From a virus, in IMG/VR virus record IMGVR_UViG_3300025887_000072, positions 1 through 35,480 of that record: a DNA stretch of 35,480 nt; one strand, written 5' to 3'. Within the stretch, counting starts at the first letter, position 1; each line of letters begins with the position of its first letter. Positions 3,994 to 26,291 of this stretch are shown here, piece after piece. Under the pieces are notes generated by a model. It saw only the letters and a program-made list of their open reading frames with translations, searched no databases and was not told the origin of the DNA. The position numbers and the translations under genes are program-made.

Positions 3994-4074
3994 AACCGAA
4001 TTCAAACACCCCAAAACGGGCCGAAAACAAGAACAAAAGCGGAATTTACAACGAACAAAGCCCCTGTCACTGTT

Positions 4075-4119
4075 CTCCGAAGGCAGAGGTCACAGGTTCG
4101 AATCCTGTCGGGTGCGCCA
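4075..4119 (+). other. attP: attP core: 3' part of tRNA-Arg(CCG)
   Basis: The 45 bases equal a tRNA from its anticodon loop (CTCCGAA, anticodon CCG, Arg) through the T-arm (ACAGG-TTCGAAT-CCTGT), the acceptor strand CGGGTGC, the discriminator G and CCA. No matching 5' half (which should begin GCACCCG) lies upstream, and the bases before the loop do not complete the anticodon stem. It is therefore not a tRNA gene but the core through which the phage recombines with a host tRNA-Arg gene and restores its 3' end. Lysis genes lie on one side and the integrase on the other, so the site is attP, unintegrated. Confidence 0.88.
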
Positions 4120-4211: not shown

Positions 4212-5297
4212 TCACCTGCCGCGCTTATTGATCGCATCGATGGCGCTTTTCTGGTGGTCCGGTGAGTGGTGTCCGTAGACACGTTCGATGGTATCGACGC
4301 TGGTGCCGAAGTATCCGGCCACATCCCAGATCGATGCGCCCCCCTGCAAGGTCCACGTAATCGCGGTGTGCTTGAGCGTGTGTGGTGTCACATCGGACAG
4401 ATCCAGATCGATCCCGCGCGATTCCGCCAATATCTCGGCTTGGATCTTCGCGTTGGACCAGCCCTTTCTGATGTCACCGACACGGTTCCCCATGTGATCT
4501 TCAACGACAAAGCGCCGGCCCATCGCAACATGGCGACGTAGGCGGCACAAATATGAGTGAGGCAAGCGCGCCGGGGTCTGGCGTTTCGCGGTCATCCGCT
4601 TGCCTTGCGGCTTACGGTACAGGACGCCCGCGTCCGTATCGACATATCCACCATAGATCGATGGCGTGTCCAGACGCAGGCTTAGGATCGTCTGCTTCCT
4701 GCTTCCCGTGTAAAGCCCGCAGAGGATGAAGTGGGCGAGGTGACGGCCATCGATGCGCAGTGAGCGCGCGGCGCGCAGTAGGAATGCGGCCTCTTGGCGT
4801 GTCAGCCAGCGTTCGCGCGGGGCCGCTCGGGGCGGCAGAACCACGGCGGGCGCTGATGTCAGGTAGCCTTCTTTGAAGCAGTGGTTGATCGCGGCGCGCA
4901 ATGTTCCAAGTTCACGGCGGACTGTGCCTTCTGAAACGCCGCGTTCGCGCATGTATCGGCGGCATGTCTCGCCTCGGACAGTTGAGACAGGCTGATCCCG
5001 CCAAAACCTATCGAGCGCGTCTATGGCGTATCCTATGCGCTCTGGCGCGGCGACTGTCTGGGCATGTTCCTCGGCGTAGATAGCCAAGCACATGCTGATG
5101 CTCATTAGGTCCGGTGAAGCGGGACCAGTTGGGCGATGTTTTCGTTCGATGTGCGCGGCGAGGGCTTTTTCAGCTTCCGCGCGGCAATCTGTGCCGGTCG
5201 AAATTCGCGTTGATCCGTCTCGGATTTCCCAGAACGGCTTTCTGTCACCGCTTGGGGTTCTCCAGTGCAGCCTTGCGCCCTTTGTCCTACGCGGCAT
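4212..5297 (-). CDS. int: Tyrosine-recombinase integrase
   Basis: 361 residues, site-specific recombinase for the adjacent tRNA-Arg attP. The N-terminus (KGARLHWRTPSGDRKPFWEI, DGSTRISTG, AEKALAAHIERKHRP) matches integrases of alphaproteobacterial prophages. The catalytic domain shows the first Arg in LYTGSRKQTILSLRL, the box H306-T-L-K309-H, and the nucleophile Tyr341 in RVYGHHSPDH. The usual HxxR Arg is Lys here, and the later His/Trp position reads FGT; both look like features of this subfamily, not damage. The start is set by the conserved N-terminus although it overlaps the excisionase-like gene by 193 bases. The 3' end abuts attP. Confidence 0.92.
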   Translation of the reverse strand: MPRRTKGARLHWRTPSGDRKPFWEIRDGSTRISTGTDCRAEAEKALAAHIERKHRPTGPASPDLMSISMCLAIYAEEHAQTVAAPERIGYAIDALDRFWRDQPVSTVRGETCRRYMRERGVSEGTVRRELGTLRAAINHCFKEGYLTSAPAVVLPPRAAPRERWLTRQEAAFLLRAARSLRIDGRHLAHFILCGLYTGSRKQTILSLRLDTPSIYGGYVDTDAGVLYRKPQGKRMTAKRQTPARLPHSYLCRLRRHVAMGRRFVVEDHMGNRVGDIRKGWSNAKIQAEILAESRGIDLDLSDVTPHTLKHTAITWTLQGGASIWDVAGYFGTSVDTIERVYGHHSPDHQKSAIDAINKRGR

Positions 5298-18895: not shown

Positions 18896-20496
18896 ACGTC
18901 ATGGCCAAACAACCACTGTCGATAGATCCTTCATTCGAGCCGAAGACGGAGCAGGAAATTGAGGCGTGCCTTGATTGCTGGGAGTGGCGCATCTTTTCGG
19001 GCCAACTGTATAGCATCATGGTCAAAGAGGACGAGGGCGACGACGACAGCGCATCGTTTGTCATGCCATTCATTCCCAACGCGGCACAGATCGCATTCAT
19101 GGATGAAGTCCACAGCCGCAACATCATCCTCAAGGCCCGCCAGTTGGGCTTCACCACACTGATCGCAATCCTTTGGCTCGATCACGCATTGTTCAATGCA
19201 GACCAGCGTTGCTGCATCATTGCCCACACCAAGAACGCGGCAGAGCGCATCCTGCGTGACAAAGTTCTATTCGCCTACAACCGAATGCCCGCATGGGCGC
19301 GCGAACCCATGCCGCTACTACGGGAATCCGCCGAGGAACTGGTTTTCGCGCATAACAACAGCGCCATCGAAGTCACCGTGTCCGCACGATCAGGCACATT
19401 CCACCGCCTGCACATATCCGAAATGGGCAAAGTCGCAGCCAAGCAGCCACAGAAGGCCGCTGAAATCGTCACAGGCTCACTGCCGTCCGTTCCCAAGAAT
19501 GGAATATGCGTGATCGAAAGCACAGCGGAGGGAAGCGAGGGCGCATTCTACGAAATGTCATCGCGCGCCGAGGAATTGTTCCAAACCGGCTTTGATCCTT
19601 TGCCAGCCGAATGGCTATTCCACTTCTTTCCTTGGTGGAAAGCACCAGAGTACATCGCAGATCCCGCAGGCGTGACATTCACCGAGGCGGATCACGTCTA
19701 CTTCCATGAGGTAGAGGTCGAGACGGGCACCAAGCTATCGATGGAGCAGCGCGCTTGGTACGTCCAGCGCCGCGACAACGACTTCTCCGGTGATGCCGAG
19801 CAGATGTGGCGCGAAATGCCTTCGACAAGCACAGAGTGCTGGCAGAAATCCACAGAGGGCACGTTCTACGCCAAGCAGCTGGCACTGGTCCGCAAAGAGA
19901 AGCGCATCACCAAGCTGCCGCACATCGAGAACATCGTCTGTCACACATTCTGGGACATCGGCGCATCTGATGGCACTGGCGTCTGGACCTTGCAGCAGGT
20001 TGGCGCACAGCACCGCTTCATACGCTACATCGAGGGATGGTCGCTGGGATACGCGCACTTCATCAAAGAACTGCGTGAGACAGGCTTCATCTACGGCGTC
20101 CATTACCTGCCACACGACGCAGAGAGCAAGCGGCAGACCAAGGATGGCGTTAAGGCACCCATCGATGACCTGCGTGAACTGGCCCCGGACTGGACGTTCC
20201 ACGTTGTTCCCCGTGTCCATGAACTGATGCACGGCATCAACCAGACACGCGCCAAGTTCAATCAAGCATGGTTCGATGAAGAGGGATGTGCAGACGGCCT
20301 AGAGCATCTGCGCCTCTACAAGAAGAAGTGGAACAACACTCTGGGCGTTTTCACCAACGAACCAGAGAAACTGACAGGCCATTCAGAAGCCGCCGACGCA
20401 TTCCGTCAGTGGGCTCAAGGCTACGATCCAACATTATTGAGCGGTCCAACCCGACCACGCCGCAGAAACCGTCCAGCAGGAGGCATGTGGGTATGA
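18892..20496 (+). CDS. terL: Terminase large subunit (packaging ATPase-nuclease)
   Basis: 534 residues from GTG 18892 (ATG 18901 possible). ATPase motifs: Walker A-like LKARQLGFTTLIA, Walker B HISEMGK with catalytic Glu, coupling motif IESTAEGSEG. Nuclease domain acidic residues: FWDIGASDGTGVW, HDAESKR, HSEAADAFRQW. Domain order and length are normal for large terminases that power DNA entry through the portal. A Shine-Dalgarno for the next gene lies inside the last codons. Conserved and intact. Confidence 0.95.
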   Translation: MNVMAKQPLSIDPSFEPKTEQEIEACLDCWEWRIFSGQLYSIMVKEDEGDDDSASFVMPFIPNAAQIAFMDEVHSRNIILKARQLGFTTLIAILWLDHALFNADQRCCIIAHTKNAAERILRDKVLFAYNRMPAWAREPMPLLRESAEELVFAHNNSAIEVTVSARSGTFHRLHISEMGKVAAKQPQKAAEIVTGSLPSVPKNGICVIESTAEGSEGAFYEMSSRAEELFQTGFDPLPAEWLFHFFPWWKAPEYIADPAGVTFTEADHVYFHEVEVETGTKLSMEQRAWYVQRRDNDFSGDAEQMWREMPSTSTECWQKSTEGTFYAKQLALVRKEKRITKLPHIENIVCHTFWDIGASDGTGVWTLQQVGAQHRFIRYIEGWSLGYAHFIKELRETGFIYGVHYLPHDAESKRQTKDGVKAPIDDLRELAPDWTFHVVPRVHELMHGINQTRAKFNQAWFDEEGCADGLEHLRLYKKKWNNTLGVFTNEPEKLTGHSEAADAFRQWAQGYDPTLLSGPTRPRRRNRPAGGMWV

Positions 20497-24912: not shown

Positions 24913-25089
24913 GTGCTTACACTCAAACTCAAGGCGGGCGAGAGCCTGTTACTCGGTGATGACATTCGGATCATTGTGCGCGGCGATGCGGGCAAGGGAC
25001 GTGTGACTATCGGGGTGGATGCACCGCGTGAGATCGCCATAGCGAGGATCGACGCACACACAACTGCACAAGTAAAGCACAACATGTAG
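24913..25089 (+). CDS. csrA: CsrA/RsmA-type RNA-binding regulator, phage-encoded
   Basis: 58 residues from GTG 24913 (GGGGAG about ten bases upstream). The CsrA pattern is clear: MLTLKLKAGESLLLGDDIRI (canonical opening M-L-x-L-x-x-x-x-G-E-S-L-x-x-G-D), then IIVRGDAGKGRVTIGVDAPR, EIAIARIDAH, including the conserved Leu4 and Arg45 (E. coli Arg44). CsrA dimers bind GGA motifs in mRNA leaders and change translation. It lies between the scaffold and capsid genes, followed by a promoter-like palindrome and a hairpin-forming capsid leader with GGA motifs. Control of the capsid mRNA is inferred. Too short for many gene callers. Confidence 0.88.
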   Translation: MLTLKLKAGESLLLGDDIRIIVRGDAGKGRVTIGVDAPREIAIARIDAHTTAQVKHNM

Positions 25090-25106
25090 TCTATTGTTGG
25101 CAAGCC

Positions 25107-25121
25107 ACCACTATATGTGGT
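25107..25121. promoter_or_regulatory. Late-motif copy 3, perfect-arm palindrome before the capsid gene
   Basis: ACCACTATATGTGGT, five-base perfect arms around TATAT, the best copy of the motif. A TATAAA (25132-25137) lies 11 bp further and could be the -10 of a capsid promoter, or the overlapping TGGTATTAG could serve. Sits between the csrA stop and the capsid leader. Confidence 0.62.
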
Positions 25122-25160
25122 ATTAGACGAGTATAAAGGCTAGGAGCCGGATCATCAGGG

Positions 25161-25202
25161 CATGGAAGTCCACCCAATTCATCTTCGATGAGGACTACCA
25201 TG
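25161..25202 (+). promoter_or_regulatory. RNA hairpin over the capsid ribosome-binding site and start codon
   Basis: Arm CATGGAAGTCC (25161-25171) pairs with GGACTACCATG (25192-25202): ten of eleven pairs, one A-A mismatch, 20-base loop. The 3' arm contains the end of the capsid Shine-Dalgarno (GAGGA) and its ATG. Each arm carries a GGA, the core of CsrA binding sites. It would keep the capsid start closed until melted or bound. Confidence 0.7.
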
Positions 25203-26291
25203 ACAGCTACAACTCTAAATTGGGGTGACACTCGCGCACAAAAGAAATGGTCCGCGACCCTCGCCACACAAGTAAACCGCAACAGCTACTTCAACAAAAA
25301 GTTTGTTGGTAAGGGCGAAAACAACATTATCGAAGAGAAGATGGACCTCGCGTCCGATGCGGGCGACCGCGTTTCCTTCGATCTGTCCGTCAAGCTGCGC
25401 CAGAAGCCGACATTCGGTGATGCGCGCGTGAAGGGCAAAGAAGAGAACCTCCGCTTCTTCTCCGACGAAGTGGTCATTGACCAGATGCGTCACCCTGTGT
25501 CCGCAGGTGGCCGTATGAGCCGCAAGCGTACCATCCACGACATGCGCAAGATCGCAAAGGATCGTCTTGCTGAATACTGGACGCAGTACATCGATGAACT
25601 CTATTTCATCTACCTGTCCGGTGCGCGCGGCGTGAATGCCGAGTTCATCGAAGATACGGCCTACACTGGCTTTGCAGACAATGCCCTGCAAGCACCAGAC
25701 GCAAGCCACATCTTGTTCGCCGGTTCCGCGACAGCCAAGGCCAATCTGGTTGCCGCTGACGTGATGACCACCAATCTGATCGAGAAGACCGCAACCCGCG
25801 CGAAGATGATGCGTGCCAGCGACCCAGACGCGACAGACATGATGCCTGTCGATGTCGAAGGTGAAAAGCACTTCGTCACAGTGATGTCCCCATATCAGGC
25901 GCACACCATGCGTACTGCATCGGGTTCGCAGTGGTTGGACTTCCAGAAGGCAGCAGCCGGAGCAGAAGGCAAGAAGTCGCCAATCTTCAAAGGCAACATG
26001 GGCATGATCAACAACGTCGTGTTGCATGAGCATGAGAACGTCATCCGCTTCAATGACTACGGTGCTGGCACAAACCTGCCCGCAGCCCGCGCATTGTTCC
26101 TTGGCCGTCAGGCTGGCGTCTGTGCTTACGGCACACCGGGCGGCATGCGCTACATGTGGAAAGAGGAAATGGAAGACTACGACAACGAACCAACAGTCGT
26201 TGCCGGTGTCATCCTGGGCGTGAAGAAGACCCGTTACAACGGGCGCGACTTCGGCGTCATCGCTTTGGATACATACGCAGTCAACGTCTAA
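25200..26291 (+). CDS. Major capsid protein (N4-gp56/DUF4043 family)
   Basis: 363 residues from ATG 25200, chosen because GAGGA lies six bases upstream; ATG 25188 has no Shine-Dalgarno. Family features: TATTLNWGDTRAQKKWSATL, GKGENNIIEEKMDLASDAGD, RVSFDLSVKLRQKPTFGDAR, DQMRHPVSAGGRMSRKRTIH, and MVTVMSPYQAHTM-like VTVMSPYQAHTMRTA, then GMINNVVLHEHENV. These match the N4 gp56-like HK97-fold capsid family. No N-terminal maturation peptide is obvious; a separate scaffold precedes it. It builds the head shell. Its leader carries the hairpin described at 25161-25202. Confidence 0.92.
   Translation: MTATTLNWGDTRAQKKWSATLATQVNRNSYFNKKFVGKGENNIIEEKMDLASDAGDRVSFDLSVKLRQKPTFGDARVKGKEENLRFFSDEVVIDQMRHPVSAGGRMSRKRTIHDMRKIAKDRLAEYWTQYIDELYFIYLSGARGVNAEFIEDTAYTGFADNALQAPDASHILFAGSATAKANLVAADVMTTNLIEKTATRAKMMRASDPDATDMMPVDVEGEKHFVTVMSPYQAHTMRTASGSQWLDFQKAAAGAEGKKSPIFKGNMGMINNVVLHEHENVIRFNDYGAGTNLPAARALFLGRQAGVCAYGTPGGMRYMWKEEMEDYDNEPTVVAGVILGVKKTRYNGRDFGVIALDTYAVNV

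Follow-up and report, generated by a model that had tools for sequence, protein, structure and literature searches.

A capsid leader with two alternative conserved hairpins in Bcep22-like phages and its association with phage csrA

Does a CsrA protein encoded by a phage act on the capsid gene that lies behind it? In many phages csrA has so far been listed as cargo of unknown benefit, usually assumed to target the host. For the Bcep22-like phages (Lessievirus and allied), published accounts describe csrA as a 'moron' gene and give the identical order portal, gp8-like gene, csrA, capsid; in the parts of these papers that were accessible, csrA is assigned no phage target and no leader element is mentioned (PMC9144972, PMC10269572, PMC7366521). 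We analyzed a 35,480-base IMG/VR virus record of a Bcep22-like phage, the whole of which we call the window, with the gene order terminase, portal, gp8-like gene, csrA, major capsid, virion proteins. The record meets the criteria for a Bcep22-like podophage (capsid PHROG 334 / Phage_capsid_3, portal PHROG 156, csrA before the capsid gene), and its capsid protein is 55–62% identical to those of named relatives. A reading made from the sequence alone (hereafter the sequence-only reading) had suggested that a hairpin before the capsid gene forms a CsrA- or translation-controlled switch, and had correctly recognized csrA as the next gene upstream. The locus contains the following elements:

24913..25089, plus strand: phage csrA, GTG start, 58 aa (Pfam CsrA E 3e-11, PHROG 9500), with the equivalent of R44 present (I-A-I-A-R)
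25097..25126, plus strand: inferred promoter-like TTGGCA (25097-25102), 18-nt spacer and TATTAG (25121-25126), between csrA and the capsid gene
25190..25194, plus strand: Shine-Dalgarno (SD) sequence GAGGA, read from the sequence, 5 nt before the AUG at 25200
25200..26291, plus strand: major capsid protein, 363 aa (Phage_capsid_3, PHROG 334)

The layout of promoter-like hexamers in the gap is common to close relatives, and by inference from it the capsid leader is expected to start near 25133; a strict promoter consensus scan did not recover the TTGGCA/TATTAG pair. An in-frame ATG at 25188 was rejected as capsid start, not being the homologous one. The same region holds two copies of a ACNACATGTNGT-like dyad 31 nt apart, ACAACATGTAGT and ACTATATGTGGT, at 25079-25090 and 25110-25121, one over the csrA stop codon and the other between the promoter-like hexamers; similar repeats occur in L003-L005, L006, L008, L010 and L011, and the two copies resemble paired operators of the capsid promoter. 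In most clades other than the window's, TTGCAA precedes a TATAAT-like box upstream of the capsid leader (e.g., L063, L110, L121), possibly a shared -35 or regulator site. Far from this locus, a tRNA-like gene (4060-4116, Rfam 31.5 bits) adjoins an integrase-like gene on the minus strand (4212-5297, a weak Pfam match under the cut-off), and the two are possibly a temperate phage attachment site.

Between the promoter-like sequence and the start of the capsid gene, the leader can form these structures:

25138..25148, plus strand: upstream hairpin GGC-UAGGA-GCC with GGA in the loop
25158..25171, plus strand: hairpin A, GGGC-AUGGAA-GUCC, a CsrA-type site (C-ANGGAN-G), mutually exclusive with hairpin B
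25161..25171, plus strand: 5' arm of hairpin B, overlapping hairpin A
25179..25191, plus strand: inner 5-bp hairpin in the loop of hairpin B (25179-25183/25187-25191), which pairs the rest of the SD
25192..25202, plus strand: 3' arm of hairpin B, covering the 3' portion of the SD together with the start codon

Hairpin B is the stem that the sequence-only reading had noticed, and it is present as described: CATGGAAGTCC at 25161-25171 pairs with GGACTACCATG at 25192-25202 in 10 of 11 bp around a 20-nt loop, the single mismatch being A25166/A25197. The claim that it closes the SD and the start codon also held, as GAGGA (25190-25194) and the AUG are wholly paired in the minimum free energy (MFE) fold by the stem together with the inner hairpin. 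Taken alone, the window leader folds only slightly better than its shuffles (z -1.66; 10 of 200 equal it), and the significance of the fold comes from the relatives, not from the window alone. The sequence-only reading had pointed to GGA in both arms and twice more upstream. The pair upstream exists (25143-25145 and 25149-25151) and the link to CsrA found support, but both GGAs within hairpin B are base-paired and thus closed to CsrA.

The conserved, CsrA-site-like part of the leader had been overlooked and is hairpin A. Hairpins A and B cannot coexist because the same bases form the 5' arm of B. Close relatives keep GGGCATGGANGTCC, in which N is freely A, U or C; its fold is GGGC-AUGGAN-GUCC, a hairpin whose loop of six bases holds GGA. 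The form preferred by CsrA/RsmE is C-ANGGAN-G (PMC7652899), and the window loop AUGGAA within GGGC/GUCC matches this form of binding site, although there are no binding data. The likely CsrA binding site is thus hairpin A rather than the stem noticed earlier, with binding itself not shown. Also overlooked was the GGA-loop hairpin at 25138-25148, which is confined to the window's own clade and has the counterparts CGGC-UGGAU-GCCG, CGGC-AGGAU-GCCG and GACGGC-UGGGA-GCCGUC in relatives. Searching IMG/VR for the pattern GGGCATGGANGTCC...GAGGA gave 43 stretches, of which only 6 had a capsid homologue downstream and csrA upstream, the rest having neither.

The comparison drew on 152 unique leaders from named phages, IMG/VR and 72 prophage loci of GTDB genomes. 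Nearly all leaders have GCGC-A[G/U/A]GA(N)-GUGC at the position of hairpin A; AGGA(N) is the most frequent loop and recreates the repeat of CsrB, CAGGA(U/A/C)G (PMC7652899). Hairpins of this type were found in 130 of the 152 leaders, compared with 26.2 ± 3.2 expected from dinucleotide shuffles. Among 26 representatives all six pairs showed two-sided changes, none of 500 shuffles reached any of five measures, and sliding controls for the covariation scored far lower. Because the loop served as the anchor of the hairpin A alignment, that alignment is biased towards the structure. Independent of any gapped alignment was a swap test of the outer stem at 80%-identity representatives, which gave 1.20 versus 0.65 extra bp (0 of 5000). 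MAFFT put no gaps into hairpins of mixed loop length, and its alignment was left out of the pair counts.

For hairpin B, 20 nt from the loop of A were hybridized with the ribosome-binding site (RBS) region of the same phage or with those of other phages. Own partners reached -17.6 kcal/mol, swapped partners -11.4 and shuffled ones -8.9 (0 of 2000 and 0 of 5000 permutations), and the own partner had a median rank of 0.04. The result did not change when representatives were limited to <90, 80, 70 and 65% capsid identity (n = 106, 74, 44 and 25), and the 11-nt core shared by the two hairpins was significant by itself. Compensated arms are seen in GGACGUGC/GCACGUCC (L095), GGAGUGUG/CACACUCC (L106), GGAAGUGCUC/GAGCACUUCC (L143), GGAGCGCC/GGCGCUCC (L148) and, with the start codon included, CAUGAGUGC/GCACUCAUG (PBC5). 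Most members of the window's clade keep hairpin B, L005 being weak (rank 0.5). The sequence-only reading would have been refuted had relatives lacked the stem or broken it without compensation; what we found across 25 to 136 leaders was compensated pairing that closes the RBS. By this comparison, the conservation of both hairpins across ~150 Bcep22-like phage and prophage leaders, down to ~45% capsid identity, is well supported. In the folding model hairpin B is the MFE structure and hairpin A about 7.4 kcal/mol weaker; forcing hairpin A lifted RBS accessibility from 0.26 to 0.48, with a rise in 127 of 136 leaders. Rfam gave no match at the gathering score for the window leader or for 12 relatives.

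These data bear on two other explanations. A fortuitous hairpin in a GC-rich leader would sit well with the marginal z of -1.66 for the window alone, but it is refuted by all comparative tests (hairpin A counts, partner swaps and covariation), and we give it practically no weight. The dyad of hairpin A could instead be a DNA operator, bound by a transcription factor and not folded as RNA, as an inverted repeat does follow shortly after promoter-like sequence in many leaders. Against this, a G·U wobble, which breaks the dyad symmetry of DNA, is the commonest state of one stem pair (20 of 26), the loop A-D-G-A always lies on the sense strand of the gene, and the distal RBS arm covaries with the dyad. 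In the leader of POI1126 gp11 (GCCGCCC-AUGAC-GGGCGGC), moreover, the stem is almost wholly different and the loop unchanged. We regard an operator as very improbable.

In F116-like (H66) and Vibrio 1F273 phages the capsid is distant, and csrA does not immediately precede its gene. The Stenotrophomonas prophages L183 and L184, whose hosts own a strong CsrA, carry a tandem pair of GCGCAGNAGUGC-type hairpins with AGUA/AGCA/AGAA loops, which may be a further specificity variant.

The gene csrA lies upstream of the capsid gene in 125 of 177 loci, always on the same strand, and mostly ends 60–145 nt before the capsid ATG. While the window CsrA is a clear member of PF02599 (43.5 bits, cut-off 27), those of relatives often score lower and fall under the cut-off (Parlo 24.8, PBC5 20.1 bits). 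A profile of 13 sequences matched solved CsrA chains at 2e-22; it consists of 12 phage proteins and E. coli CsrA, so this match is partly circular. Where the capsid block is rearranged, a CsrA-like gene is often found elsewhere (PBC5, Atu_ph08, POI1126 gp06, G002, G003, G005, G006, G007; E 2e-5 to 3e-3, for the most part under the Pfam cut-off). Reading frames of PBC5 and Atu_ph08 show the CsrA signature immediately past the gp8-like gene, and gp06 of POI1126 directly follows gp05. The CsrA-like gene of PBC5 (L223, 34161-34328, minus strand) is absent from the annotated features; that of Atu_ph08 is L224. A Pfam search of 16 records detected no CsrA in 5 (G001, G004, G008, G009, Mwe-JY25), some of them fragments, and an HMM built in this analysis gave a weak candidate in Mwe-JY25. 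Pseudomonas phage 8P has a CsrA-like gene (L266, 9910-10122) between structural and tail genes, not before the capsid gene.

Many hosts of these prophages appear to lack a csrA of their own. No CsrA match at E <= 1e-3 was found in the genomes of 9 of 16 prophage hosts (alpha/beta; Agrobacterium, Rhizobium, Devosia, Thioclava and others), and in 5 more (Caballeronia, Burkholderia, Sphingobium, Sagittula) the single match lay at the expected site of the prophage csrA. A strong host-type CsrA was seen in Stenotrophomonas and Dyella, and two in Luteimonas. The absences rest on the Pfam model, which misses diverged phage CsrAs too. B. cepacia, B. cenocepacia and S. meliloti are without chromosomal csrA according to a published survey (PMC7366521). 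JC1 CsrA was detected in virions by one peptide (PMC9144972). Knock-down of csrA in the unrelated E. coli phage PTXU04 causes small plaques (PMC11879866); we rejected this as evidence for the switch, as the layout differs and csrA is far from the capsid gene.

The G of the loop GGA is present in 73 of the 112 leaders with csrA, and about a third of the csrA-bearing leaders have the loop AUGA or AAGA, which is not a canonical CsrA site. Residue R44, without which E. coli CsrA no longer binds RNA (PMC7652899, PMC6692469), is present in the window protein and in 55 of the 112 CsrA proteins whose loop was classified, and is lost in the others, mostly those with non-GGA loops. Among 164 CsrA column/residue features, R44 was the top correlate of loop GGA versus A/U-GA: the loop has GGA with 50 of 55 R44 proteins and with 23 of 57 non-R44 proteins (Fisher 1e-8, the next best feature reaching 4e-4). 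Mapped on the capsid tree, the loop underwent at least 19 changes and R44 16. Independent pairs agreed in 6.3 cases versus 0.5 (sign test median P 0.06, low power), and in an Mk simulation on the capsid tree R44 was matched in 0 of 3000 replicates (0.017 corrected over all 164 features).

This co-variation is relevant for the idea that the switch is real and CsrA not its ligand, the balance of A and B being set by another phage or host protein or by folding during transcription and csrA being a mere neighbor. The element does persist without an adjacent csrA (in rhizobial phages) and without a loop GGA, and Pfam finds no CsrA-like gene in some records; several such genomes, however, retain CsrA-like genes elsewhere. 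That the R44-loop association survives a phylogenetic null, that the loop agrees with both the repeat of CsrB and the consensus of RsmE, and that the several copies scattered over a genome point to a trans-acting factor leave this idea only a small chance. We consider the structure and its linkage to CsrA well supported.

The dispersed copies were found with a covariance model, R1, built from pentaloop relatives and searched against complete phage genomes. The strong matches are on the sense strand just before late genes, save three in or near the coding sequence of darB and a few unplaced. They precede endolysin or lysozyme genes in ZX1, Skulduggery, Pavtok, PEp14, Itty13 and Parlo, in PBC5 and Atu_ph08 the gene that diverges from the capsid gene, and in POI1126 gp11, gp21, gp26, gp30 (DarB-like) and the gene after gp30; gene identities in PEp14, Parlo and Mwe and that of the POI1126 gene after gp30 were inferred from the reading frame and not from annotation. 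Matches inside darB of JC1 and DC1 were set aside as coding sequence, and the CSP3 match was not located in a gene. The extra leaders were complementary to their own RBS at -13.8, versus -11.9 for swapped (8 of 5000) and -8.4 for shuffled partners, in a set chosen because R1 had found it. R1 misses the window's own hexaloop hairpin (best chance matches E 0.3 or more) and is therefore unsuited to counting copies there. When 33 gene leaders of the window were scanned directly, the only further GGA-loop hairpin lay before the ORF at 20286, and no leader but that of the capsid gene had an element of the conserved type; the hairpin A pattern with 2–3 mismatches allowed matched no further leader there. 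In rhizobial phages (L065, L063; L260, L261), divergent capsid and endolysin-like genes share one intergenic region with the hairpin in both leaders.

The comparative evidence thus shows both structures, their mutual exclusivity, their association with phage csrA and selection on both; the physical binding of CsrA, the sign (activation) and the timing are inferred. With the compensated RBS pairing, the CsrA-like loop, the adjacent and retained csrA and the R44-loop co-variation, the earlier suggestion of a switch controlled by CsrA or translation gains support short of binding. We propose, as a probable reading with binding and sign inferred, that the capsid leader is a two-state translational switch in which phage CsrA binds A, prevents B and turns the translation of late proteins on. 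In state B, RNA around GANGUGC (CAUGGAAGUCC in the window) would pair with the SD and start-codon region and block ribosomes. In state A the same strand would pair with the upstream GCGC (GGGC in the window), exposing GGA or the variant A-D-G-A in the loop and leaving the RBS free. The default would be off because B alone is the more stable fold. CsrA building up from the upstream gene of the late operon would bind the loop of A, trap A and switch translation on, and capsid and lysis proteins would be kept off until it accumulates. The same device before endolysin and other late genes in relatives suggests that CsrA would activate the translation of virion and lysis proteins at a late stage, and that it may also guard against leaky expression in lysogens. 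More tentatively, with slightly less than an even chance in our judgment, phage CsrAs govern a late-gene translational regulon of their own (capsid, endolysin, DarB-like and other virion proteins) on a portable bistable leader, and one branch lost R44 and switched with its loops from GGA to A[U/A]GA.

The sequence-only reading had left the direction of control open. Activation, CsrA opening the RBS, is in our inference most likely, but the sign is the weakest step of the model, since repression would follow if CsrA spanned the loop and the SD GGA, as it does on glgC. CsrA would then anchor on the loop of A with its second face reaching the SD GGA ~26 nt downstream, B being an extra off state or a tuning element. 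The window SD GAGGA does hold a GGA at bridging distance from the loop GGA, a further GGA precedes the AUG in 62 of 73 GGA-loop leaders, and repression is the commonest mode of CsrA (PMC7652899). A repressor, however, has no need of an RBS closed by default (B being the MFE structure in the model) or of strongly selected pairing; 11 of the 73 leaders have no other GGA, and any SD normally contains one. We hold repression to be unlikely, without dismissing it. Activation itself lacks binding or expression data, the GGA in most SDs makes a repressive bridge possible, and the A form is weak in silico, so that tight binding or cotranscriptional folding would be needed.

If the activation model is right, the leader gives csrA of Bcep22-like phages a concrete phage target and a mechanism, and would explain why phages of csrA-free hosts retain it. 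Phage structural and lysis genes would make up a CsrA regulon, and the system would provide a natural series of coevolved CsrA-RNA pairs for dissecting CsrA specificity and a compact, portable leader for controlled translation. We found no description of the leader in the literature; subscription papers, among them the original Bcep22 paper (PMC3187461), were outside our scope, and prior mention is not excluded.

A close known system is E. coli ymdA, which CsrA activates by opening an SD-sequestering hairpin that contains the CsrA site (PMC7492729). The corresponding SD-closed default fold is seen in the MFE fold of the window leader and in the folding model of relatives. Unlike in ymdA, the phage leader presents the site by a conserved alternative hairpin, the regulator is encoded by the phage, the targets are capsid and late genes in many genera, and experimental proof is lacking. 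With E. coli glgC, which CsrA represses (PMC7652899), the leader shares a GGA in an upstream hairpin loop, there of high affinity, and a GGA in the SD; whereas glgC is repressed by bridging to the SD, the phage leaders have a conserved competing helix that closes the RBS, and some are without a second GGA. The loop resembles sites of the CsrB/RsmZ type, CAGGA(U/A/C)G or C-ANGGAN-G in the loop of a short hairpin, but the phage sites are in mRNA leaders, each with a single main site, and one loop in three is A[U/A]GA. CsrA control through a leader that closes the SD is thus of a known kind, and what is new is its phage setting.
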